DNA of 64,000 nucleotides from Bacteroidota bacterium (GTDB lineage: Bacteria; Bacteroidota; Bacteroidia; NS11-12g; UBA955). Position numbers and translations under genes: made by a program. The notes under the pieces were generated by a model that was not told the DNA's origin, ran no database searches, and saw only the letters and a program-made list of their open reading frames with translations. Below are positions 8,387-20,217 of this stretch, piece after piece; within the stretch, counting starts at the first letter, position 1; each line of letters begins with the position of its first letter. The stretch spans positions 1 through 64,000 of the forward strand of contig CANMBF010000003.1 in the NCBI GenBank assembly GCA_947496065.1. The letters run 5' to 3'.

Positions 8387-11300
8387 CTATTTCAACAATG
8401 TCAAGGCACCTCTGTAGATTTTTAGTCGCCCGTTTGCATCTACCAATTTTAAGACATACACATAAACACCATCCATGCATGGGCTATTTTGATAGGTGCC
8501 ATCCCAGGCTTTGGTTACAGCATCAGATTCAAAAACCTTTTCGCCCCAACGGTTGTAAATGCTAAAGTTGTACGACTGATAAGCTAACACGCCACCCGGT
8601 GCAAAGGTTTCATTCAAGCCATTGTCATTAGGGGTAAAGGCTGTTGGGAAAAATACACGCAATGGTCCATAAGCCAATACCAATTGTTGAATTGTATCCG
8701 CACAACCATTGTTGTCTTTTACGATTAATTGAACAGATATGCTGGCCGTATCAATAATAGAAATACTGGTGTCCATTCGTGCAGTGCCAAATTTACCAAA
8801 GTTCCATCTTGAATTTAAACCACTCGGTGAACTGTTGTTTTTAAATTGAAACAAATGATCATCCTTTTCGCCTTCCGCCACTGCGTAACTAAATTTCGCA
8901 ATCGGCAGAGCAAATACGGTAACATGGTTGGCAAATACATTGGCACTCGTACATCCCTTATCACTCGTCGCTTTCAAGCCGATGTTATAAATATCTGCAT
9001 TGGCATAGGTATGACTTGGATTTATAACAGTCGAATTATTCAGGTCGCCAAAGTCCCAATCGTAAGCCACTATACTGCCACTGCTAATACTGCTTTTATT
9101 TTTGAAAACGGATGGGTTATTCAAACACACCGCTTGCACCAAATCAATATCGACTATAGGGTTGGGGTTGATGGTGATCGACTGTGCAAGCGTATCCACA
9201 CAGGCGCTGTCCGAACGGATGGCCAATTGAATTTGATAGGTGGTAGCTGCATTGTAAGTTTTAGTGGCAGGATTCAATCCTAAATAGTTTGTATTGTCGC
9301 CCAACAACCATTGGTGAGCAATAATACTGCCCGATGAAATGCTAGAGGTGTTTGTGAAATCAAATGCATGCCCATCGAAACATTGCACTGCTGCGTTAAT
9401 TGTAAAGTTAGCTTTTGGTTTTGGATTAACAACCACATGTTTTGTCGTCAGACCAGGGCAACCTTCTGTTGTCTTTAAAATTAAATCAATAGCTGTTTTG
9501 CCCAAGGGTAAATTGGTTAGATTCACATTGGCTTGATTAAGATAGGTGTTACCATTGATTGTCCATTGCAGTTCAATAATGCTATCGTTGCCCACTTTCG
9601 GCACATAGGTAAATTGGAAGTTCTGTAAATTTTCGCATTGCGAAGTGTTGTTGATTCTGAAATCAGAGATGGGTCCGTTTTGCACCAACACTGTCTTTGA
9701 AACACTGTCTTTACAACCCCTTGCATCGCTTACCATATGGGTAATCGTAAATGTTTGGGCGCTTGCATAGACTTTATTCGCAGGGCTTCTACCAGTATCC
9801 GAGGTGTTATCACCAAAGCGCCAATTTAGTAAACTAAGTTGACTACTGTCGGCCGATGCAGTTGATTTAAATTGAAACTGATTGCTCACCAAACATTGGA
9901 TGGAATCGTTTATGGTGAAGTTGGCAGTAGGTGGATTGTAAACATTAACTATTTTAGAAGCACTGTCCGAACAACCTTGTGGCGAAATACTTTTTAAGCT
10001 GACCTTGTAATACCCTTTTTTATTGTAAATATGCTGGGGAGCCGAGTCGCTTGCTGTACCTAAATCGCCAAATTGCCACTGGTATTTTAAAGGGCGATAG
10101 TCGGCACTGCTACTATCAAAAAATTGGGCAGCACTGCCTTTACAAAAAGGGCCATTAAAAATAAAATTAGATTTAGGATGCGTGTAAATGGTTAAATCTT
10201 TTCTGAAGGTGTCAATGCATTTATTGGCATACGCATAAATTAAATCGATGTAGTATTTGCCTGTATCAACATAGCTGCGCCGGGCCTTTGGATTGCTATT
10301 GCTCAACACATACCCTTCGCTGAAATACCATTTGAAACGTGGCATTTCTAGGGAGTCGACCACGCTGGTATTTTTAAGTGTAATGCTATTGTTGTTAAAA
10401 CAAGAATCTAAAATATTCAATGTGAAATTTGGATGCGGTGCTGGTTTAATATACACCACATCAATGGTGTCGCTACGACAGCCATGTTTGGTGTATACAG
10501 AGAGAAACACAGGAATGGCATCAGCATTTTTGAATTTATAATACTGCACGCTGTCAGAACTTACCACCACTTTTTCTGTAAAGTCCCACACCACTTTGGC
10601 AATGCTATCTGAGCTTGTTGAGAGGTTGGTAAATTTAATGCCGCCTTTGTCGTTTTGACACATGGTGTACTTATCGGCTTTGAATAAAGCTTTTGGCAAG
10701 GGGTGTTGTGTGACTCTAAAAGTGTCGTAATAATAACAACCGTGTTCGTCTGTAATTTTAAGACTATGCGCACCACCAAATGCAATGTACTTGCTAAAAT
10801 TGGTTTCGCCACTGTTCCACTCATAACTGTATTCATCGTCATAAAAAGTGGGGGTTTTTAAATAAAATAATTTGCCGCATACGGTTGTGTCTTGGCCAAG
10901 GATTCTTTTGACAACTGGCTTGTGTATAGTTATTATCCGAATAACAGTATCATATCGCATGGTGCGTTTTTGCTGTGCAACTAGTCTAACGGCATAAGTG
11001 CCCACAGTATCGAATTTATGTTTAACCTTTGTGCCATAAGCTGCAGCACCATTGTCTCCAAAATCCCAGGTTTGGTTGTTGAAGCTATCGTTTTTATAGG
11101 CCTTAAAAATAATGGAATCATAAACGCACAATGAATTCGCCATGTTAAAGAAATTGCCTTCAAATGAATTGAGTTCGCAAAGGTTCAAGGGTGCAATGGT
11201 AGGATCGATTTTAGTAAAATAGTCGCGTGCAGAATCTTTGAGGTTCATGTAAATGGAGCCACCTAAACTTTGACCTGTGGCCCATAAGGTGCCATCATCC

Positions 11301-12328
11301 TTCATTAAGTATGAGAAAGTTTCGCCAGCCATAATTTCAGAAACATCGGTTGAAATTAAAGCTGGAGTAGGACTAGCAGTCACGATTCCAATGCCCATAT
11401 TGCCCCAAATATTCCGACCCCATGTATAACAGTTATGATTTTCATCTATTGCCATAAAATGGTAACCATCAGCAGAGCCAGATATAGCAACAATTTTTTT
11501 TAAGCCATTAATTTTTGCAGGATAAAATTGCGTTCCGCTATTGCCGTTGCCACAGAAATCACTATTGCCCCAAGCATACACATCGCCCAAACTGTCGAGT
11601 GCAATGGTGGCATAAGTTACAGATTTTATATCGACAATGCCTTTTAAACCAGGCACTGCTTGCGGTAGTTTTGAAACAGCAGAGACATTGCTGGTATTCC
11701 CTAAACAACCATTTGAATTATTTCCAGTTGTCATCACTGTTTTATCTGACAATAGGATGGTAATAGTATGAAATGTTAAAGCGACTCTTACGGCCTTGTT
11801 AACCTTCTTCATTTTGACTGGTTTTCTTATAGTTGCATTCTTAATGCTATCATTCCCAAAGGCACCCGAACCATTGTTGCCCACGGTCCATACAGTGCCA
11901 TCGTATTTAACAAAAGAAACCATATTGATGGCAGCATCTAAAAATTTAACGCTGTCCAATACTTTAGTAGGTGTCGAACCCAAAGGATTACCCCATACCC
12001 AAGCAGTACTATCCCATTTAATGGCACCCATGTTGTAACCCGTAGAATAAAATTTAACATTGGTCATGCCCAGCGCTTTTACCGGGCTAGTCGTACTATT
12101 GTTTGTGCCATCGCCTAACTGGCCACTGTGATTGGCTCCCCAACCATACAGTTGATGTGAATCGCCACAAACCGTATAAGCAGAATAAGAACCTACCGTG
12201 TAGTTTTGAGGCTTATACCACAAGCGCCCACCAAAGCCATCGCCCACCATGCTGTTCTGAGCAGAAGCAGTAAATGAAAACACTGTAAATAAAATAAGTC
12301 CATAATACTTTAGTGATTGGCTGTGCAA
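8387..12328 (-). CDS. giant secreted protein: RCC1-type repeats, PKD domains, T9SS type B domain
   Basis: A 1313-residue secreted protein. Signal peptide (YYGLILFTVFSFTASAQ), then RCC1/alpha-tubulin-suppressor-like propeller repeats over about 40-370 (YGWGANHSGQLGDGTNN, YTWGRNIWGNMGIG), then about eight PKD-like domains (WDFGD, WQFGD, WRFGDNTSD cores) and a C-terminal CHU_C/type B sorting domain (FFPTAFTPNDNGLNETF, FSIYNRWGEKVFES, GVYVYVLKL). The start is TTG at 12328; no in-frame ATG lies near. Such proteins are exported by T9SS and anchored or released at the surface. Function is unknown; adhesion or glycan binding is a guess. Confidence 0.88.
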   Translation of the reverse strand: MHSQSLKYYGLILFTVFSFTASAQNSMVGDGFGGRLWYKPQNYTVGSYSAYTVCGDSHQLYGWGANHSGQLGDGTNNSTTSPVKALGMTNVKFYSTGYNMGAIKWDSTAWVWGNPLGSTPTKVLDSVKFLDAAINMVSFVKYDGTVWTVGNNGSGAFGNDSIKNATIRKPVKMKKVNKAVRVALTFHTITILLSDKTVMTTGNNSNGCLGNTSNVSAVSKLPQAVPGLKGIVDIKSVTYATIALDSLGDVYAWGNSDFCGNGNSGTQFYPAKINGLKKIVAISGSADGYHFMAIDENHNCYTWGRNIWGNMGIGIVTASPTPALISTDVSEIMAGETFSYLMKDDGTLWATGQSLGGSIYMNLKDSARDYFTKIDPTIAPLNLCELNSFEGNFFNMANSLCVYDSIIFKAYKNDSFNNQTWDFGDNGAAAYGTKVKHKFDTVGTYAVRLVAQQKRTMRYDTVIRIITIHKPVVKRILGQDTTVCGKLFYLKTPTFYDDEYSYEWNSGETNFSKYIAFGGAHSLKITDEHGCYYYDTFRVTQHPLPKALFKADKYTMCQNDKGGIKFTNLSTSSDSIAKVVWDFTEKVVVSSDSVQYYKFKNADAIPVFLSVYTKHGCRSDTIDVVYIKPAPHPNFTLNILDSCFNNNSITLKNTSVVDSLEMPRFKWYFSEGYVLSNSNPKARRSYVDTGKYYIDLIYAYANKCIDTFRKDLTIYTHPKSNFIFNGPFCKGSAAQFFDSSSADYRPLKYQWQFGDLGTASDSAPQHIYNKKGYYKVSLKSISPQGCSDSASKIVNVYNPPTANFTINDSIQCLVSNQFQFKSTASADSSQLSLLNWRFGDNTSDTGRSPANKVYASAQTFTITHMVSDARGCKDSVSKTVLVQNGPISDFRINNTSQCENLQNFQFTYVPKVGNDSIIELQWTINGNTYLNQANVNLTNLPLGKTAIDLILKTTEGCPGLTTKHVVVNPKPKANFTINAAVQCFDGHAFDFTNTSSISSGSIIAHQWLLGDNTNYLGLNPATKTYNAATTYQIQLAIRSDSACVDTLAQSITINPNPIVDIDLVQAVCLNNPSVFKNKSSISSGSIVAYDWDFGDLNNSTVINPSHTYANADIYNIGLKATSDKGCTSANVFANHVTVFALPIAKFSYAVAEGEKDDHLFQFKNNSSPSGLNSRWNFGKFGTARMDTSISIIDTASISVQLIVKDNNGCADTIQQLVLAYGPLRVFFPTAFTPNDNGLNETFAPGGVLAYQSYNFSIYNRWGEKVFESDAVTKAWDGTYQNSPCMDGVYVYVLKLVDANGRLKIYRGALTLLK

Positions 12329-12673: not shown

Positions 12674-14035
12674 ATGACGCAAACAAAAAAATTAAGTTTA
12701 CTCGATTGCACCATGTTAATTGTGGGCAGTATGATTGGTTCTGGTATTTTTATTGTACCGGCCGCTATGAGTCGCGACCTTGGTTCTCCCTTCATGCTTT
12801 TATTGGCTTGGGTGGTGACCGCTATTCTTACTTTTTTAGCAGCATTGTGTTATGGTGAGTTAGCTGCCATGATGCCTAAAGCAGGCGGACAATATGTATA
12901 CCTGCGCGAAGCCTACGGTAAATTATTTGGCTTTTTATATGGATGGACTTTGTTCTCCGTTATTCAAACGGGTACAATTGCCGCTGTAGCTGTTGCATTT
13001 GCAAAATTTTCAGGTGTCTTTTTTCCAAGTATATCGGCCGATAACCATTTGCTAGAAATTGGCGGTTTAAGCATGTCTTCTCAACAATTACTAGCCATTG
13101 CTATCGTGTGGTTGTTAAGTGCATCGAATTTTAGAAATGTTAAAAGCGGTGCATTTTTACAAAATATATTTACGTTTACAAAAATTGGTGCCATCGTTTT
13201 TATGATTGTTGCTGGTTTGTATTTTGCTTTTTCAAATACACCCCAAACACCCGATTTTTCAATTCCAGATGCCGTTGGTGATTATAATTATTGGGGCATT
13301 TTCTGTGTGGCCTTGGTAGGCTCTATTTTCTCTTCAGATGCATGGAACAATGTCACCTTTACTGGTGGCGAAATAGATAAACCTGAACGCAATTTGCCAT
13401 TGTCATTATTAATCGGAACAGGGTTGGTGATGTTAGTTTATTTTACTATCAATTATGTTTACTTAAAAGTGATACCGTTCGAAGGTATTAAAAATGCGCC
13501 TTTCGATAGGGTAGGAACTTTGCTTTCTTCAACAGTATTTGGTGAGATCGGTTTGTTTCTAATGGCTGCACTTGTCATGGTGTCGACGTTTGGTTGCATC
13601 AATGGTTTAACACTTTCTGGTTCACGTGTATACTATGCCATGGCCGAAGATGGCCTGTTCTTTAAGAAAGCAGCTACCTTGAATAAAAATAAGTCACCTC
13701 AGTTTGCTTTGATTATACAAGCCATCTGGACCAGTATACTAACCCTCTCTGGATCTTATGGCGACTTGTTAGATTACGTGGTGTTCGCAGTTTTAATATT
13801 CTACATTTTAACAGTAGCCGGTATCTTTATATTAAGAAAAAAACAACCCGATGCTCCACGTCCTTACAAGGTGTTTGCCTATCCGTATCTGCCAATACTA
13901 TACATTGCCATGGCCACATTCATTAGCATCAATTTATTGATTTATAAACCTGCTTTTACGTTCCCAGGTTTAATCATCGTGCTAATCGGTGTCCCAATTT
14001 ATTACTTGATTCGCAAAAAGGACAAAGCCAGCTAA
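12674..14035 (+). CDS. APC-family amino acid permease
   Basis: A 453-residue membrane protein with 12 predicted segments, starting MTQTKKLSLLD at 12674 (an upstream in-frame ATG at 12647 gives an unlikely N-terminus). The APC signature is in helix 1, VGSMIGSGIFIVPAAM, with FTGGEIDKPERNLP in the helix 6-7 region. It most resembles the LAT-type subgroup; substrate unknown. Its 3' end overlaps the convergent gene at 14032. Upstream, 12329-12673 holds no recognised gene or clear promoter. Confidence 0.9.
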   Translation: MTQTKKLSLLDCTMLIVGSMIGSGIFIVPAAMSRDLGSPFMLLLAWVVTAILTFLAALCYGELAAMMPKAGGQYVYLREAYGKLFGFLYGWTLFSVIQTGTIAAVAVAFAKFSGVFFPSISADNHLLEIGGLSMSSQQLLAIAIVWLLSASNFRNVKSGAFLQNIFTFTKIGAIVFMIVAGLYFAFSNTPQTPDFSIPDAVGDYNYWGIFCVALVGSIFSSDAWNNVTFTGGEIDKPERNLPLSLLIGTGLVMLVYFTINYVYLKVIPFEGIKNAPFDRVGTLLSSTVFGEIGLFLMAALVMVSTFGCINGLTLSGSRVYYAMAEDGLFFKKAATLNKNKSPQFALIIQAIWTSILTLSGSYGDLLDYVVFAVLIFYILTVAGIFILRKKQPDAPRPYKVFAYPYLPILYIAMATFISINLLIYKPAFTFPGLIIVLIGVPIYYLIRKKDKAS

Positions 14036-15321
14036 GGATTCAACTTGATAATTTTTTGAGTGGTGCTACAGCCTTGGCTTTTAAATTGCAAAAAGTAAAT
14101 ACCACATGGCAAATCGCTCAAATCTAAGCCCTTTGACAAGCTTGATAAAGTTGCGTTGTAAATTATTTTGCCTTCAGAATTTAGTAAACTAAGTTGACCA
14201 TCTTCTGTTGCGTCCATATAAATCTTATCATTGGTTGGATTCGGATAAAAATGAAATTGTTGGGTCTCATTGCGCTTCAACGTTCCAGTTTTTGTTGGCG
14301 TTAATTGAATTTTATAGAGTGCCGCTTCAAATCCTACGCCTGTTGAACCACCGAGCCAAGCAATGGTATCGTTGCTTAAGTGTAGGGTGCCCGAACTAGA
14401 AACAGTTGCAGGTAAGGTGGTCTTTTTCCAACTTATGCCAGCATCATTCGACGTCATAATGGCATTATAACCGCCTAGCATAAAAAACTGTTTGCGCTCC
14501 GGAATAGCGGTAAGCGTTTGCATGCCCGCTGCCAATGGCAATGAATCGGTCATATTGGTCCAGGTAGCACCGTAATTAACGCTGCGACTTAATCCCCCTT
14601 TGCCATTTAAATAACGCTTCAATGCTAAAAAAGTGCCGCCTTGATTGGCAATGCTACTAGCAGCACTTAAAGAATCTAAAGTGGTTCGAAAAGCTTTCCA
14701 TTTTTTACCTTGGTTTTGGGTGCGCACCAAACTGCCTTTGCTATAACCAAAGTAAATACCTGAATCGCATATAAACTGCGATTGTGTGCCGGATAATTGA
14801 TTAAAACCAAAAGGCGTGTAAGAAGGTGGACCGCCTTGTTGCCAAGGTACATTGGTGTTGGTATTAAAGCTATCTGATGAATACCATGCATTGGCTGCAC
14901 CTACTACGATGACATTAGAAGGGGTGTAGGCGTGCACAAAAACACCATAGGAAAAGCTTGTATTTTTCCAAGTGGCCCCACCATCAGATGTGCGATAATT
15001 AAAAGAACTACCAAATTGATCTTCGAGAATAACATAGGCCACTTTTGAATTTGCAACATACAAGTCGAGCGCATAGCCTTTGATGCTTGAATCGGGTGTT
15101 GAAACTTGCCAATTATTGCCATTGTCCATGCTTTTTAAAACCTTGCTTGCCTTAGTGCCATCATTAGAAGAGGCAATGGCCCATACTTCAGTTGGATTGG
15201 GTGTGAAAATATTATTAATGATGTAACCTGAAGGAATGATTCCAACCGCCTTTGGCGTAAATGAATTTTGCGCAATGATCAACAAAGGCACAAAAAACAG
15301 ACTCGTAAACAATGATTTCAT
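14032..15321 (-). CDS. secreted beta-propeller (BNR/Ycf48-like) protein with T9SS type A domain
   Basis: A 429-residue protein: signal peptide (MKSLFTSLFFVPLLIIAQ), then sialidase/photosystem-assembly-like propeller blades with repeated Asp-box-like motifs (SMDNGNNWQVS, TSDGGATWKNT, SNDAGISWKKT), then a type A sorting domain (FHFYPNPTNDKIYM, SEGKIIYNATL, LPCGIYFLQFKSQG, ending KIIKLNP). Secreted by T9SS. It has its own promoter (15326-15356), downstream of the terminator that ends the MbnP/MauG/YHYH unit, so it is likely independent of it. No catalytic residues of a true sialidase were identified. Confidence 0.87.
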   Translation of the reverse strand: MKSLFTSLFFVPLLIIAQNSFTPKAVGIIPSGYIINNIFTPNPTEVWAIASSNDGTKASKVLKSMDNGNNWQVSTPDSSIKGYALDLYVANSKVAYVILEDQFGSSFNYRTSDGGATWKNTSFSYGVFVHAYTPSNVIVVGAANAWYSSDSFNTNTNVPWQQGGPPSYTPFGFNQLSGTQSQFICDSGIYFGYSKGSLVRTQNQGKKWKAFRTTLDSLSAASSIANQGGTFLALKRYLNGKGGLSRSVNYGATWTNMTDSLPLAAGMQTLTAIPERKQFFMLGGYNAIMTSNDAGISWKKTTLPATVSSSGTLHLSNDTIAWLGGSTGVGFEAALYKIQLTPTKTGTLKRNETQQFHFYPNPTNDKIYMDATEDGQLSLLNSEGKIIYNATLSSLSKGLDLSDLPCGIYFLQFKSQGCSTTQKIIKLNP

Positions 15322-15390: not shown

Positions 15391-15427
15391 AAAAAAAACG
15401 CGTCAAAAAATTAATTCTAACGCGTTT
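15391..15427 (-). terminator. intrinsic terminator ending the YHYH-protein unit
   Basis: On the minus strand AAACGCGT (15420-15427) pairs with ACGCGTTT (15396-15403) and runs into a T-tract. It lies 21 bp after the YHYH gene stop and separates it from the next gene's promoter. Confidence 0.65.
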
Positions 15428-15447
15428 CGCTTTAGGTGATTACTATC

Positions 15448-16806
15448 CTATTTCATAATCACAATTTTTTTATTAATCAAACTAATGCCATTTGATAGCG
15501 TAATTAAATACTCGCCTGCATATAATTTTTGGGTATCAAAATAGGCAATGGTACTGCCTTGGAAAAGCACAGTAGTATCCACAAGTTTGCCATTCATATC
15601 GTATAAATTTATTTTTAAATTGTCTTTGTTTAAATCGTTCACTTGTATGGCGATTAAATCACTATCGGGATTCGGGTAAATATCAATTTTAAAATCTGCA
15701 CCCAATGGTTTAATTCCAGATGAAGATGGTGAGTAAGTGGTAACTGGCTCAGCAATGCTAAACACTCTGATGGCATTTTTAATGCCATAAAAATAGGGAC
15801 CTACAGCATATGGATAAGCTGAATTCCAATTGGCATCAACCGTGGCAAAATAACAATAGATACCATCTGGATATTCAGGGGTTTTACAAATGCGTCCATT
15901 GTGTTCATCTAAATAATCGGGTGTTGCAGCTGAGGTGGTATCATAATAATAATCCTCTCTAAAATAGCCTAATGGGTAGGTGGCACTAACAGGCGGTCCA
16001 GCCGTTACACTGCTGCCATTGTAATAAGTATTTCTTACCGTTATATTTCTTAAGCGAAAGCTCGATTTCATTCTGGTGATACCGCCAGTGCGGTCGGTAT
16101 TTTTATAAGCATAGGCCCCATAAATCGGAAAGCCATCATACGCAAACCCTATGAGCGGAGAATGTTTGATACTGTCAATGGTATACAATCCATCGGCATC
16201 ATATAAATTACAGATGGTTGAAATCACTTTTTTATCAAGTTTAAATGCACTCGGATTTTGATGGAGATGGTAATTGCCTCTGGCTGGGTGCCCTTTTGCG
16301 CAATCAAACCCATCCTTTTCACCAACTACAGCATCGCGGTTCCAAATTCCATCGCCCATGCCCATCAATGGGCCGCCTTTAAGCGCTTGTGCTGCATTGC
16401 TCCAAGACACAGCATCTCTGTAATCAAATAATGCTACACCATTAATAAATAAACCAATGTTACCTAATGTAGTTGCACTTAGTGGACCAGTATTGGCCTT
16501 AGGCGTTAAACTTACTTTAAAGATAGCATTTTGTGGTTGTGCTGTATCTCTGTTGCCATCTAAAAAAGGACCGGTCAAATAAGCCGGTATACCTTGTGTT
16601 TTAATATAGGCCCAATCGCTTGAATATTGAACTTTCAAAACATTGGCAGATGCACTGTCTTTAAAAGGGGTAGGGTTGTTCTTGACATAATGGCGACCTT
16701 TAATGCCATTGGTGTTTTGAAGCCAGTTTAAAATGGCTGGATTCGTTTGTGCGTTCGCTGTAACAAGGAACATTGTTATCGCAATCGTAAGTTGTATTTT
16801 TTTCAT
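15448..16806 (-). CDS. YHYH-domain secreted protein with T9SS type A domain
   Basis: A 452-residue protein: signal peptide ending TANAQ, a YHYH domain (SVKFLN-type core here NAIFKVSLTPK, GLFINGVALFDYRDA, GFDCAKGHPARGNYHLHQNP, IGFAYDGFPIYGAYAYK) and a type A sorting domain (DIYPNPDSDLIAI, DMNGKLVD, AGEYLITLSNG, ending KIVIMK). The motif is NYHLH, a variant of the family's YHYH. Function of the family is unknown; the His-rich motif suggests metal binding. It is the last gene of the ECF/MbnP/MauG unit, 74 bp after the MauG-like gene, and its sorting domain places it at the cell surface. Confidence 0.85.
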   Translation of the reverse strand: MKKIQLTIAITMFLVTANAQTNPAILNWLQNTNGIKGRHYVKNNPTPFKDSASANVLKVQYSSDWAYIKTQGIPAYLTGPFLDGNRDTAQPQNAIFKVSLTPKANTGPLSATTLGNIGLFINGVALFDYRDAVSWSNAAQALKGGPLMGMGDGIWNRDAVVGEKDGFDCAKGHPARGNYHLHQNPSAFKLDKKVISTICNLYDADGLYTIDSIKHSPLIGFAYDGFPIYGAYAYKNTDRTGGITRMKSSFRLRNITVRNTYYNGSSVTAGPPVSATYPLGYFREDYYYDTTSAATPDYLDEHNGRICKTPEYPDGIYCYFATVDANWNSAYPYAVGPYFYGIKNAIRVFSIAEPVTTYSPSSSGIKPLGADFKIDIYPNPDSDLIAIQVNDLNKDNLKINLYDMNGKLVDTTVLFQGSTIAYFDTQKLYAGEYLITLSNGISLINKKIVIMK

Positions 16807-16880
16807 TATTTTATTAGTTGCAGTTGGTTTGAATATTTTAGACGATGAATTATTTAAAAACCCGCGTTTTTTTCTTTTTT

Positions 16881-17900
16881 TTATTTAGGATAACCGAAGG
16901 CTGGATTGAACAAAAAACGTTTATCTGTAAGGGTCATTAAAAAGGCAATCAAATCGACTTTTTCATTGGAGGAAAGTACAATAGGTTTTTCTAATTGCGG
17001 AGCCAGGGTGGCAGAGCGTTGAATGCCTTGGGTATAATGGTTGATTACCTCTGATAATTTTTTAAACCGACCATCATGCATGTAAGGATAAGAAAACTCA
17101 ACATTGCGCAGCGATGGGATTTTAAATTTGAATGCGTCATTCGCATTCTGCGTAATGCGCAAGCGCAAGCGACCAGAATCATTTAATGTTTTTGAAATGG
17201 GTAATCCAATATTGGCAAATTCGTAAGTGCTAAAAAGGGGTTCGTTATGACACTTGTTGCAGAAGGTTTTAAAAAGTTGATAGCCTCTTTTTTCTTGCGA
17301 AGTAAATTTGGATTGTTGCCTTTTAACGCTGTCGTATTTTGAATTTGAACTCACCAAGGTGAGCATGAATTGTGAGATGGCTTTTAAGGTTTGCTCGCCT
17401 GTGATACTGGAATCGTGATACGCTTTAAAAAACAAGGTTCTGTATTTTTGTTTGGTCCTTAATTTCTGAAGCACATTGCCGAGAGTTTCGCCCATTTCGC
17501 TTGCGTGACTGATAGGTGCAAGTGCTTGCACATCCAAATGGTTGATGGCACCATCCCACATAAAGTTAGATTGCCATGCAAGGTTCATCAAGGCAGGTGC
17601 GTTGCGGGTGCCAATGCTATCGTTAATGCCATGGCTCAAAGCATGGTCGACATGCGTAAAAGCGGTGTATTGCAAATGGCAATTGGCACAAGAAATGGTA
17701 TTGTCTTTTGAAAGGAGAGGGTCGTAAAACAATTGTCGGCCCAATGCAATACAAGAAGCGTTCAAAGGATTGTTCTTGAAATTATAAGCAGGTACTGGCC
17801 AATTTTTAGGCACCGTAAATTCTTCTGTTTTTATAAATGCCAAGACACTTATTAATAGACAGAACAGAAATACGAAGCTTAGTTTTTGTAGGCGTCCCAT
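16881..17900 (-). CDS. di-haem cytochrome c peroxidase/MauG-family protein (MbnH/CorB-like)
   Basis: A 339-residue periplasmic protein with an N-terminal hydrophobic signal/anchor (about 7-23), two c-type haem sites (CANCH 71-75 and CNKCH 214-218) and the family block YMHDGRFKKLSEVINHY. The first frame ATG at 17900 overlaps the upstream MbnP gene by 22 bp, so the two are coupled. In methanotrophs the MauG-like partner of MbnP/CorA oxidises a Trp of its partner to kynurenine to make a copper site; the adjacency here suggests the same. Plain peroxidase activity cannot be excluded. Confidence 0.88.
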   Translation of the reverse strand: MGRLQKLSFVFLFCLLISVLAFIKTEEFTVPKNWPVPAYNFKNNPLNASCIALGRQLFYDPLLSKDNTISCANCHLQYTAFTHVDHALSHGINDSIGTRNAPALMNLAWQSNFMWDGAINHLDVQALAPISHASEMGETLGNVLQKLRTKQKYRTLFFKAYHDSSITGEQTLKAISQFMLTLVSSNSKYDSVKRQQSKFTSQEKRGYQLFKTFCNKCHNEPLFSTYEFANIGLPISKTLNDSGRLRLRITQNANDAFKFKIPSLRNVEFSYPYMHDGRFKKLSEVINHYTQGIQRSATLAPQLEKPIVLSSNEKVDLIAFLMTLTDKRFLFNPAFGYPK

Positions 17901-18589
17901 ACTTTAAAAGCCTTTGCAGCAGCGATAGAAATTTGAACAGCATTTTTACTAGGCGACATGATATGTTGTTGCACATTGAAGGGTAATTGTAACAACCACT
18001 GTTCTAAATCAAATGCAATGTTTAGTTCAGAACCTAATTTTCGATTGGTTTTTAAACGGATGTTTTGAATCGCCAAATTGGGATACAAATAACCGCCCAA
18101 ATGGTATTGGAATTGATGACCGAATTGAGGACTCACATTGCTTTTTCCTTCGAGTTTTAAATTGATGTAGCCGCTTTGCCACGACCAATACATGCCCTTG
18201 CTAGGATCGAGTGCACCACCCAAGGCACCAGCGGTGTTGGTGGCACTGTCAATGCCAAGATTAAAACTGATTTCGTCATAGTGAATACCTTTTATCAATT
18301 TAAGTTCAATATATAAACTCGAAGGATCGCTTAGATCAATCAAATGGTAACCATTAATTTCACTATATACTTCTAAATTGTTTTGAAATAATTTGATGTC
18401 AGATATATAATAGCGCAAGGAATGAATCACCATACTATCCTTTTGATTGAATACAAAACCCGAATCGAGTTGAAGCATTTGATAGTCTCCTACAGGGTGA
18501 ACGAAATGAATTTTTAAACCGCCTTTATTTTGAGCGTCGAGAGTTAAGACAGAAAACAACAAACAAAGTGAGAGGCTAAACCTTGCCAT
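17879..18589 (-). CDS. MbnP-family protein (putative copper-binding)
   Basis: A 236-residue secreted/periplasmic protein: signal peptide (LSLCLLFSVLTLDAQ), then MbnP family blocks HSLRYYISDIKLF, the central DPSKGMYWSWQSGYINLKLEG with two Trp residues, and HQFQYHLGGY. MbnP proteins bind copper, in some cases through a kynurenine made from a conserved Trp. Its start overlaps the upstream stop as TAATG, and its end overlaps the MauG-like gene, so the three genes are tightly coupled. The copper role is family knowledge; no measurement supports it here. Confidence 0.82.
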   Translation of the reverse strand: MARFSLSLCLLFSVLTLDAQNKGGLKIHFVHPVGDYQMLQLDSGFVFNQKDSMVIHSLRYYISDIKLFQNNLEVYSEINGYHLIDLSDPSSLYIELKLIKGIHYDEISFNLGIDSATNTAGALGGALDPSKGMYWSWQSGYINLKLEGKSNVSPQFGHQFQYHLGGYLYPNLAIQNIRLKTNRKLGSELNIAFDLEQWLLQLPFNVQQHIMSPSKNAVQISIAAAKAFKVWDAYKN

Positions 18590-19092
18590 TATTGGGGTCC
18601 GTTTGGCTTTGGCATGGGTTTAAAATAATCGCGAATTTCGATCATCAGCGATTCGAATTTTTTAAGTTGTGCAGGGGTGCATATTTTTTTCAATTCGGCT
18701 GCTTGCTCAATTCGCAACAATTCCATCTGATGCTCATTCTGAGAAACACGCAAGGCAACAGTCTTCAATAAGCTATCGTTGGTGTTGCTGTTAAACATCA
18801 TCTCATTCATCGAGTCGCGCTGACTGCGAATAAGTTCATGCACTGCTCTTTCTTTTTTGAAATAGGTGTTGCGCAAATCGTTAAATTGCATGACTTGGGT
18901 TTCACTCAGTTTTAATTCTTTTTCAATAATGCCCGATACTTCCCTAAAGTTTTCTCTTTCGCGATGGGGTGGCGGACCAGGTGGGCCATGTTTAATATTT
19001 TTAAATACCAATACGCCTATAACGACAACGTTCAATAGCGCTAAAATAATGACCAATCGAATCAATAATTTTTTTTGTGCAAATAAGTCCAT
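18589..19092 (-). CDS. Spy/CpxP/CnrX-like periplasmic metal-sensor protein
   Basis: A 167-residue protein with one N-terminal membrane anchor (about 9-30), a Pro/His-rich linker (HGPPGPPPHRER) and a four-helix LTxxQ-like periplasmic part (LKLSETQVMQFNDLRN, CTPAQLKKFESLMIEIRDYF). This is the layout of the heavy-metal-resistance family that includes CnrX and ZraP. It sits between a small membrane protein and MbnP in an ECF-sigma unit, as CnrX does in CnrYXH systems. It may sense a metal and release the sigma factor (inference). Confidence 0.8.
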   Translation of the reverse strand: MDLFAQKKLLIRLVIILALLNVVVIGVLVFKNIKHGPPGPPPHRERENFREVSGIIEKELKLSETQVMQFNDLRNTYFKKERAVHELIRSQRDSMNEMMFNSNTNDSLLKTVALRVSQNEHQMELLRIEQAAELKKICTPAQLKKFESLMIEIRDYFKPMPKPNGPQ

Positions 19093-19095
19093 TGT

Positions 19096-19404
19096 TTAAT
19101 TTATACTAGTGGTAGTTTGAATGAGTAATTCGTTTGAAATGGTCGTTAATTCAGTACTTCTACTGCTATCGTTGGTGTTGCGATTGGTAAAAGTTTTGAC
19201 ACAGAATGCAATGTTAATTACAATGAATAAAAGTGCAATTAAGCCTATTTTAGTTGAAGTTATTCCAGCAATGTTCCTTTGAGGTGTTTCAGAAATTCTT
19301 TGCATGAGTTGATCATTCCATGTTGAACTCGGATTTTTGCCAATGCTCTGTTCAAATTGGCTTAAGAATTGGTCTGCTTTTAAATTAAAATCAGCGTCTT
19401 TCAT
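19096..19404 (-). CDS. small single-pass membrane protein, candidate anti-sigma factor
   Basis: A 102-residue protein with an acidic/amphipathic cytoplasmic N-terminus (MKDADFNLKADQFLSQFEQSIG), one membrane segment (about 50-70, TKIGLIALLFIVINIAFCV) and a short Thr/Ser-rich outer tail. It lies directly after the ECF sigma gene and 3 bp before the CnrX-like gene. Topology and position fit a CnrY-like anti-sigma, but no zinc-binding HxxxCxxC motif is present and no family is recognised, so this is contextual. Confidence 0.6.
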   Translation of the reverse strand: MKDADFNLKADQFLSQFEQSIGKNPSSTWNDQLMQRISETPQRNIAGITSTKIGLIALLFIVINIAFCVKTFTNRNTNDSSRSTELTTISNELLIQTTTSIN

Positions 19405-19449
19405 TTTTGTAATGTATTATTTAGAAGATAATTAATTGTTATTCTGGCG

Positions 19450-20028
19450 CTATTCATTGTTTTTTTTCAAAATTCTTTTTATCACCTCGCCTGTCTGTTT
19501 CTTACCACGGTAAATAAGTGACTCCACAGCAACCGTCGTTGTATTCATTATTTCGGCAATTTCACTATTCGTATAGCTTTCAATCTTGCTTAAAGTAAAG
19601 GCAATTCTTTGATTGTCTGGCAGGGTATTTAAAGCCTCTAACACCAATTGAAGCGTTTCGTTTTCTTCCATCGCCTTGTCAGGCCTTGTGCCGCCGCCAA
19701 GCCAATTGGCAATATCTTCTAAATGCAATAATTTACCAACGGAACTTATTCTTTTTTGACGGTTGCGTTTTTTTATTTCGTCAAGGCATTTCGTAACGGC
19801 TATGCGATAAATCCAAGTAGATAATTTTGATTGCCCTTTAAAAGCCTTGATGGATTGATAAACTTCAATAAACACCTCTTGTGAAACATCCTCAGCATCG
19901 GCTTGATCGAGCAAAAACCGAAAGCATGTTTGGACAACTTGTGTCCTGTGCGTTGCCACGAGTTGTTCGAATGCAATCTTATTACCTTGTTTTAGTAATG
20001 CTAATAAGTTCGACTCGTTAGTAGACAT
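19450..20028 (-). CDS. ECF-type RNA polymerase sigma factor
   Basis: A 192-residue sigma-70-family protein. Region 2: DAEDVSQEVFIEVYQSIKAF and STWIYRIAVTKCLDEIKKR; region 4: LPDNQRIAFTLSKIESYTNSEIAEIMNTTTVAVESLIYRGKKQ. First gene of a six-gene minus-strand unit that ends at the terminator near 15391. It probably directs transcription of this unit in response to the membrane sensor pair encoded next. No autoregulatory promoter motif was pinned down. Confidence 0.92.
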   Translation of the reverse strand: MSTNESNLLALLKQGNKIAFEQLVATHRTQVVQTCFRFLLDQADAEDVSQEVFIEVYQSIKAFKGQSKLSTWIYRIAVTKCLDEIKKRNRQKRISSVGKLLHLEDIANWLGGGTRPDKAMEENETLQLVLEALNTLPDNQRIAFTLSKIESYTNSEIAEIMNTTTVAVESLIYRGKKQTGEVIKRILKKNNE

Positions 20029-20217
20029 TTAATTGGAATTGAAATTTAATTCTAAAGTTAAATTAAGATCACAAACATACAAAAACTTATAGTATATGTG
20101 CCTCGCAATTGATTTCAAATAGGAAATAGTATGATACAGGTCATTATTTATTTTGACTGTTGTCATAACGGACACTTTAATAGATACAATAAATTTGTTG
20201 CGTTATACATTAATAAA

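Follow-up and report, generated by a model that had tools for sequence, protein, structure and literature searches.

The window analysed here is a 64,000-nt stretch at the start of contig CANMBF010000003.1 (assembly GCA_947496065.1) from a Bacteroidota bacterium. On its minus strand, between positions 15448 and 20028, it carries six consecutive open reading frames (ORFs) that potentially encode an extracytoplasmic function (ECF) sigma factor, a candidate anti-sigma factor, a sensor candidate, an MbnP-family protein, an MbnH/MauG-like di-haem protein and a YHYH-domain protein. Such a set of six genes had been proposed in an earlier reading made from the letters alone (hereafter the sequence-only reading). 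All six ORFs were confirmed at the coordinates below, and the Pfam scores of the named families were far above cut-off.

19450..20028, minus strand: ECF sigma factor, 192 aa (PF04542 63.9 bits, PF08281 54.6 bits)
19096..19404, minus strand: candidate anti-sigma factor with one transmembrane (TM) helix, 102 aa, N-terminus predicted inside
18589..19092, minus strand: sensor candidate of the Metal_resist/Spy family, membrane-anchored and periplasmic, 167 aa (PF13801 47.3 bits)
17879..18589, minus strand: MbnP-family protein, 236 aa (PF20243 145 bits), with W135-x-W137 and H163
16881..17900, minus strand: MbnH/MauG-like di-haem protein, 339 aa (PF03150 173 bits)
15448..16806, minus strand: YHYH-domain protein with a type A sorting tail of the type IX secretion system (T9SS), 452 aa (PF14240 180 bits, PF18962 47.5 bits)
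15395..15428, minus strand: intrinsic-terminator-like hairpin at the end of the unit, 14-pair stem and T-run

Layout and recurrence of the six-gene unit

The one-TM gene follows the sigma gene after 45 nt and is itself followed after 3 nt by the sensor gene, which has 1 nt in common with the MbnP gene (TAATG). The MbnP and MbnH genes overlap by 22 nt, and 74 nt separate the MbnH gene from the YHYH gene. These spacings confirmed the tight junctions described in the sequence-only reading, and the hairpin, read from 15428 to 15395, closes the unit as that reading had it. Each of the two long gaps, of 45 and 74 nt, contains a promoter-like site; these gaps were no topic of the sequence-only reading. 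Sorting of the YHYH protein by the T9SS, another of the earlier claims, was borne out by TIGR04183 (41.2 bits against a cut-off of 23) as well as by PF18962.

The unit was then surveyed in 70 genomes of the window's family and in the neighbourhoods of matches. With an alignment of this MbnP type, more than 550 relatives were found in named genomes, and the best 80 loci were taken for neighbourhood counts. These loci belong to metagenome-assembled genomes (MAGs) labelled Chitinophagales, Saprospiraceae, Flavobacterium, Sphingobacteriales, Ignavibacteria and Kapaibacterium, among others. An MbnH-like di-haem gene lies next to MbnP in 78 of the 80, a YHYH gene is found within five genes on the same strand in 60, and the sigma/one-TM/Metal_resist module stands directly upstream of MbnP in 35. 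Strict six-gene units make up 24 of the 80 loci, and the order sigma, one-TM protein, Metal_resist, MbnP, MbnH and YHYH recurs in many genomes of the family. Because gene order, strand and tight spacing repeat in dozens of Bacteroidota genomes, the unit is not a product of chance; the six-gene synteny searched for in related genomes is present, and a chance neighbourhood was ruled out by it. Units very like those of Bacteroidota were also seen in an Ignavibacteria MAG (L104) and a Phycisphaerales MAG (L136), where gene transfer or wrong binning may be at work.

A promoter class inside and outside the unit

The upstream regions of two other operons of the window's genome were compared, which gave a common two-box motif. 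The promoter class CGAAGGAT-N13-TCGTCTAA is present in the MbnH/YHYH gaps of many loci. The promoter-like sites of the window are as follows.

19421..19449, minus strand: P1, promoter-like site of the sigma type, CGCCAGAA-N13-TCTTCTAA, within the 45 nt between the genes for sigma and the anti-sigma candidate
16838..16866, minus strand: P2, promoter-like site of the sigma type, CGCGGGTT-N13-TCGTCTAA, between the MbnH and YHYH genes
20072..20085, minus strand: candidate sigma-gene promoter TTTTTGTATGTTTG, containing TAnnTTTG, an element of the Bacteroidota -7 type

For the P1 position, a matrix built from the YHYH sites was applied with a threshold of at least 9 bits and compared with shuffles. 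Matches in the sigma/anti-sigma gap were obtained for 44 of the 47 modules, whereas 0.4% of shuffles gave one; the same matrix matched before the sigma gene in 2 of 47 and before the MbnP gene in 0 of 47. Of 32 loci with the module, 25 have the -10 element before YHYH, as do 5 of 31 loci that lack the module; before other genes the element was found in 2 of 748 cases. Among 34 whole genomes, exact promoter sites occurred in 12 of the 18 that have the module and in none of the 16 that lack it (Fisher p 4e-5). Eight of the 21 exact sites precede an anti-sigma gene and nine precede a YHYH gene; the remaining ones precede a CotH protein, a TonB-receptor-type N-terminus, an exported 494-aa protein and one unrelated-looking gene. 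At locus L208 a CotH-kinase-type exported protein lies behind a sigma-type site, and a similar N-terminus begins a 756-aa gene before MbnP at L105.

When the window's genome was scanned, the two-box pattern matched just the YHYH gene, an operon with a multicopper oxidase (MCO) and an operon with a second YHYH gene, although the pattern had been fitted to these sites and the result is not independent of them. An independent check was made with a leave-clade-out matrix, built from 19 other loci without the window's clade. This matrix ranked P2 first in the 64-kb window on both strands (23.8 bits, the next match reaching 12.4), and the sites before the MCO and the second YHYH gene ranked first in stretches of 15 and 12 kb. 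Both of these operons lie on other contigs than the six-gene unit. The first (C29, L162) consists of a T9SS-type MCO and redoxin pair, and the second (C42, L159) holds the second YHYH gene with genes for Lcl_C, sulfatase, HupE/UreJ and M10-type protease proteins, beside a divergent gene of the CarboxypepD_reg/TonB-plug type. The sequence-only reading thus covered part of the system. Since the promoter class precedes these two operons and its sites there were ranked first by the leave-clade-out matrix, the sigma factor probably commands a dispersed surface regulon, and we regard the case for this regulon as strong. Sigma control of the unit itself, as earlier proposed, is supported by the promoter evidence inside and outside the unit.

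Other genomes keep the regulon partly in one operon. Some of its parts are joined to the MbnP unit in nine loci (L042, L044, L045, L054, L056, L100, L107, L143 and L155) and stand within one operon in five of them (L107, L143, L155, L042 and L044). At 13 loci an MCO gene belongs to the unit or adjoins it, and its presence there is informative because such genes are rare: 31 of the 70 family genomes have any, usually one. Sulfatase was counted where Pfam confirms it (L044 and C42), the sulfatase hidden Markov model having drifted so that it also matches YHYH. Across the family, the presence of the YHYH protein and that of the second YHYH protein are correlated (20 of 23 versus 16 of 47, p 3e-5 with no correction for kinship). 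The module is absent from about half of the MbnP loci, as might be expected if a generic Bacteroidota sigma module had chanced to lie before an MbnP/MbnH pair; the tight overlaps and dozens of repeats across the phylum, the promoter sites shared by the unit and its dispersed partners, and the lack of any further Metal_resist gene in the window's genome make it extremely improbable that the six genes have no functional unity.

Two other motifs were set aside. The 14-mer TTTTTGTATGTTTG is identical upstream of sigma in four related genomes with diverged flanks and is single-copy in the 2.9-Mb genome; being unique there, it was dropped as a regulon motif and fits a housekeeping element. TAnnTTTG is the consensus of the Bacteroidota -7 type element. 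The motif TTCGCCAGAT had been spotted by eye in two operons; taken alone it matches the genome 7 times, and specificity needs the two-box form. When the regions upstream of the sigma genes were searched de novo for two boxes, nothing clearly above shuffles was found.

Some neighbouring genes were also recorded. Related large CarboxypepD_reg/TonB-receptor-type proteins are encoded at L159 (1180-3534) and L046 (3403-5850), a possible outer-membrane partner; the L046 gene adjoins a unit of MbnP, MbnH and YHYH genes that lacks sigma. Downstream of the terminator, the window encodes a T9SS-tailed BNR/sortilin-like protein (14032-15321), with a similar counterpart at L039, and a 1313-aa surface-type protein (8387-12328).

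Protein families of the unit

The MbnP protein passes the PF20243 cut-off of 27 bits by a wide margin. W135, W137 and H163 are invariant across 50 MbnP relatives, and W135 and H163 are also kept in distant paralogues. PDB sequence searches with MbnP gave nothing convincing, whereas the fold search succeeded: with the AlphaFold model (pLDDT 89.1), the top six Foldseek matches were all chains of 7l6g, the MbnP of Methylosinus trichosporium (best E 7.5e-8 with TM 0.58; next match E 0.12). As the sole significant PDB fold match, 7l6g upholds the identity first given to this protein. Two further kinds of MbnP were seen. At L034 (G000 C46, 82-2649) lies a second MbnP; it is a lipoprotein, has no MbnH neighbour and adjoins a cation-efflux (CDF) transporter and two other proteins, one of 64 aa that is rich in Cys and one of 133 aa that contains Cys. 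At L035 (G000 C6, 5087-7035), and also at L067, L068 and L070, there is a third, distant MbnP-MbnH pair, preceded by a gene of about 640 aa that is conserved in several genomes.

The di-haem protein matches MbnH 6e1c at 5.9e-38. Its two CxxCH sites (C71xxC74H75 and C214xxC217H218) are found in 100% of 114 homologues, in all of which Tyr289 is invariant as well. The aligned residue is Tyr in MbnH 6e1c and Met in the cytochrome c peroxidase (CCP) 3o5c, and Tyr289 corresponds to MauG Tyr294 by alignment offset alone. The MauG-like label therefore holds, in the sense of a MauG/MbnH-type haem site and not that of a classical CCP. From the work on CorA/MopE (PMC3912023) among other knowledge, a partner of this type would be expected to convert a Trp to kynurenine at a copper site. 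By analogy with methanotrophs, MbnH here would probably oxidise a Trp of the MbnP WxW motif, giving a copper site together with His163.

The YHYH protein is the more conserved of the two exported proteins compared, with a mean column identity of 59% versus 45% for MbnP, and H173, Y179, H180, H182 and H215 are invariant in 50 YHYH sequences. PDB sequence and fold searches with this protein (model pLDDT 83) found no relative beyond the T9SS tail, and a literature search found no paper on YHYH function.

The sigma factor matches SigW (1e-21) and CnrH (4cxf, 6e-12) in the PDB, SigW and RpoE being nearer than CnrH. Across modules, the slot behind it is occupied by one-TM proteins of 83-125 aa. They have a conserved N-terminal segment of the FLxTRI type and an Asn64 in the TM helix, and most relatives end in a C-terminal NxLY tail. 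Pfam and NCBIfam hold no family for the 102-aa protein, and its profile gave no anti-sigma match in the PDB and no sequence kinship to CnrY. CnrY is a class II anti-sigma factor, small and with a cytoplasmic N-terminus (PMC7406223). The features of the one-TM protein fit a putative small anti-sigma factor with a cytoplasmic N-terminus, CnrY-like in size and topology.

Proposed switch, copper and related systems

Taken together, these features lead us to favour, with moderate confidence, a reading of the unit as an envelope-signal sigma switch and the regulon core for exported and surface proteins whose task is most likely to handle copper. Gene order, families, the MbnP fold, the conserved residues and the promoter class with its distribution are computational results, whereas the anti-sigma and sensor roles, the pairing of sigma with the promoters, Trp oxidation, copper as signal and substrate and the direction of response are inferred. 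The ECF sigma gene would be transcribed from its own promoter, and the anti-sigma candidate would hold sigma via the cytoplasmic segment at its N-terminus. The Metal_resist/Spy-family protein, anchored in the membrane, would read the periplasm and contact the short periplasmic tail of the anti-sigma. A signal, most likely copper-related, would free sigma for transcription from promoters of the CGAAGGAT-N13-TCGTCTAA type: P1 would give more anti-sigma and sensor, a negative feedback, along with MbnP and MbnH, and P2 would give YHYH. In trans, sigma would start the T9SS MCO-redoxin operon and the second YHYH / Lcl_C / sulfatase / HupE / M10 operon, and the T9SS proteins would act at the cell surface. 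Copper is a likely theme of the regulon because of the MbnP fold and the MCO genes at the 13 loci.

Several points weigh against this reading. P2 is also present at five loci that have no module next to it, and in principle these promoters could serve another ECF sigma. P1 of the window is weaker, with TCTTCTAA replacing TCGTCTAA (10.3 bits, rank 3 in the window). In a kinship-controlled tree test of the P2/module association, 2.4 pairs were for and 0.1 against, of 5, which is not significant in an underpowered test. HupE, sulfatase, Lcl_C and M10 proteins by themselves are no pointer to copper. Both MbnP (TIGR04052, 34.3 vs 140 bits) and the MbnH-like protein (TIGR04039, 203.9 vs 362.85 bits) miss the NCBIfam equivalog cut-offs, so the pair here forms a distinct subfamily; MbnP is a family member at the level of Pfam and fold, not a methanobactin equivalog. 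Finally, the window's sensor has Y/Q at the positions of His77/His130.

This His77/His130 pair is found in 42 of 47 Metal_resist sensors and is missing in exactly five, which are those of the window's clade (WIN, L036, L038, L039 and L104); Cys138 is kept in nearly all sensors, the window's included. Metal sensing is for this reason plausible for the family and doubtful for the window's sensor. In the PDB, the sensor profile comes nearest to 5ihf (VirG-like) and Spy (3oeo), and CnrX is absent from its matches. Of the earlier label "CnrX-like metal sensor", the likeness at the level of the Pfam family stood, but for the window's protein the label appears weak on profile and ligands alike. Such a sensor could be Spy/CpxP-like, in a switch and regulon that answer envelope folding or redox stress and not metal, with the di-haem enzyme, MCO, redoxin and sulfatase engaged in extracellular oxidation or matrix modification; none of the genes for redoxin, sulfatase, Lcl_C, M10 or CotH proteins is a copper gene. 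We consider this unlikely: the His pair and Cys138 of most sensors fit metal binding, MbnP and MCO are copper-linked families, and Trp135, Trp137 and His163 are invariant in MbnP.

Within copper handling, the response may have the direction of starvation, the genes being induced by copper lack, with MbnP and YHYH scavenging and HupE importing. CorA, which is copper-repressible and surface-exposed and binds Cu(I), offers a precedent (PMC3912023). The HupE/UreJ permease of the second YHYH operon would suit this sub-case, and so would the genes of the TonB-receptor type, which lie beside L046 and C42 and in one case follow a promoter site. CueO-type oxidases, however, usually detoxify Cu(I), the unit itself has no classical copper importer, and Metal_resist sensors are linked to metal excess, which makes starvation a tentative and rather unlikely direction. 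A surface copper relay is quite improbable. There, kynurenine-modified MbnP would collect periplasmic Cu(I), T9SS YHYH proteins and the MCO would hold and oxidise it outside, and the window-clade sensor, its metal ligands lost, would read a protein or redox state; the invariant His cluster of the YHYH proteins would sit in a fold that is apparently unsolved.

The favoured reading, a sigma switch for copper handling, has partial parallels in known systems. The methanobactin MbnP/MbnH pair of Methylosinus trichosporium (TIGR04052/TIGR04039) shares the adjacent genes, the MbnP fold of 7l6g, the homology to MbnH 6e1c and the invariant Trp and His. Here, in contrast, the pair is a distant subfamily under an ECF/anti-sigma/Metal_resist module and linked to YHYH and T9SS proteins; no methanobactin genes are in view beside it, although no profile search for MbnA/B/C was made. 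The nickel/cobalt system CnrYXH of Cupriavidus metallidurans likewise has an ECF sigma, a small one-TM anti-sigma (here a candidate) and a membrane-anchored Metal_resist-family sensor in one unit. The order here is sigma, anti-sigma, sensor, the latter two have no detectable sequence kinship to CnrY and CnrX, the His pair is lost in the window's clade, and the targets are MbnP, MbnH, YHYH and MCO instead of an RND (resistance-nodulation-division) efflux pump. As the sensor departs from CnrX in sequence and in its candidate ligands, and the profile of the anti-sigma candidate leads to no known anti-sigma, the unit was not filed as CnrYXH despite its layout.

CorA/CorB and MopE/SACCP of methanotrophs have the surface copper(I) protein, di-haem partner and kynurenine site that are proposed here, whereas here the partners are exported by the T9SS and sigma control is probable; no CorA/MopE chain was among the sequence or fold matches of MbnP. 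With CueO/CotA-type systems the regulon shares MCO domains (Cu-oxidase 1-3), but its MCO is T9SS-tailed, paired with a redoxin and preceded by a sigma-type promoter in common with the YHYH genes. The literature search, which did not extend to subscription papers, found none describing this combination. The switch, its signals and the protein set recur across the phylum, and as a system they appear to be undescribed.

MbnP/MbnH pairs are common far beyond methanotrophs, and their role outside that group has been termed mysterious (PMC3621798). The present analysis links the pair to a defined sigma switch, to a promoter class that can be read from sequence and to a set of listed partner genes, which makes its function in Bacteroidota directly testable. 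The YHYH family gains a genomic context, and a putative anti-sigma family is proposed for a phylum poor in class I anti-sigma neighbours, in which about 6% of ECFs have one (PMC7406223).

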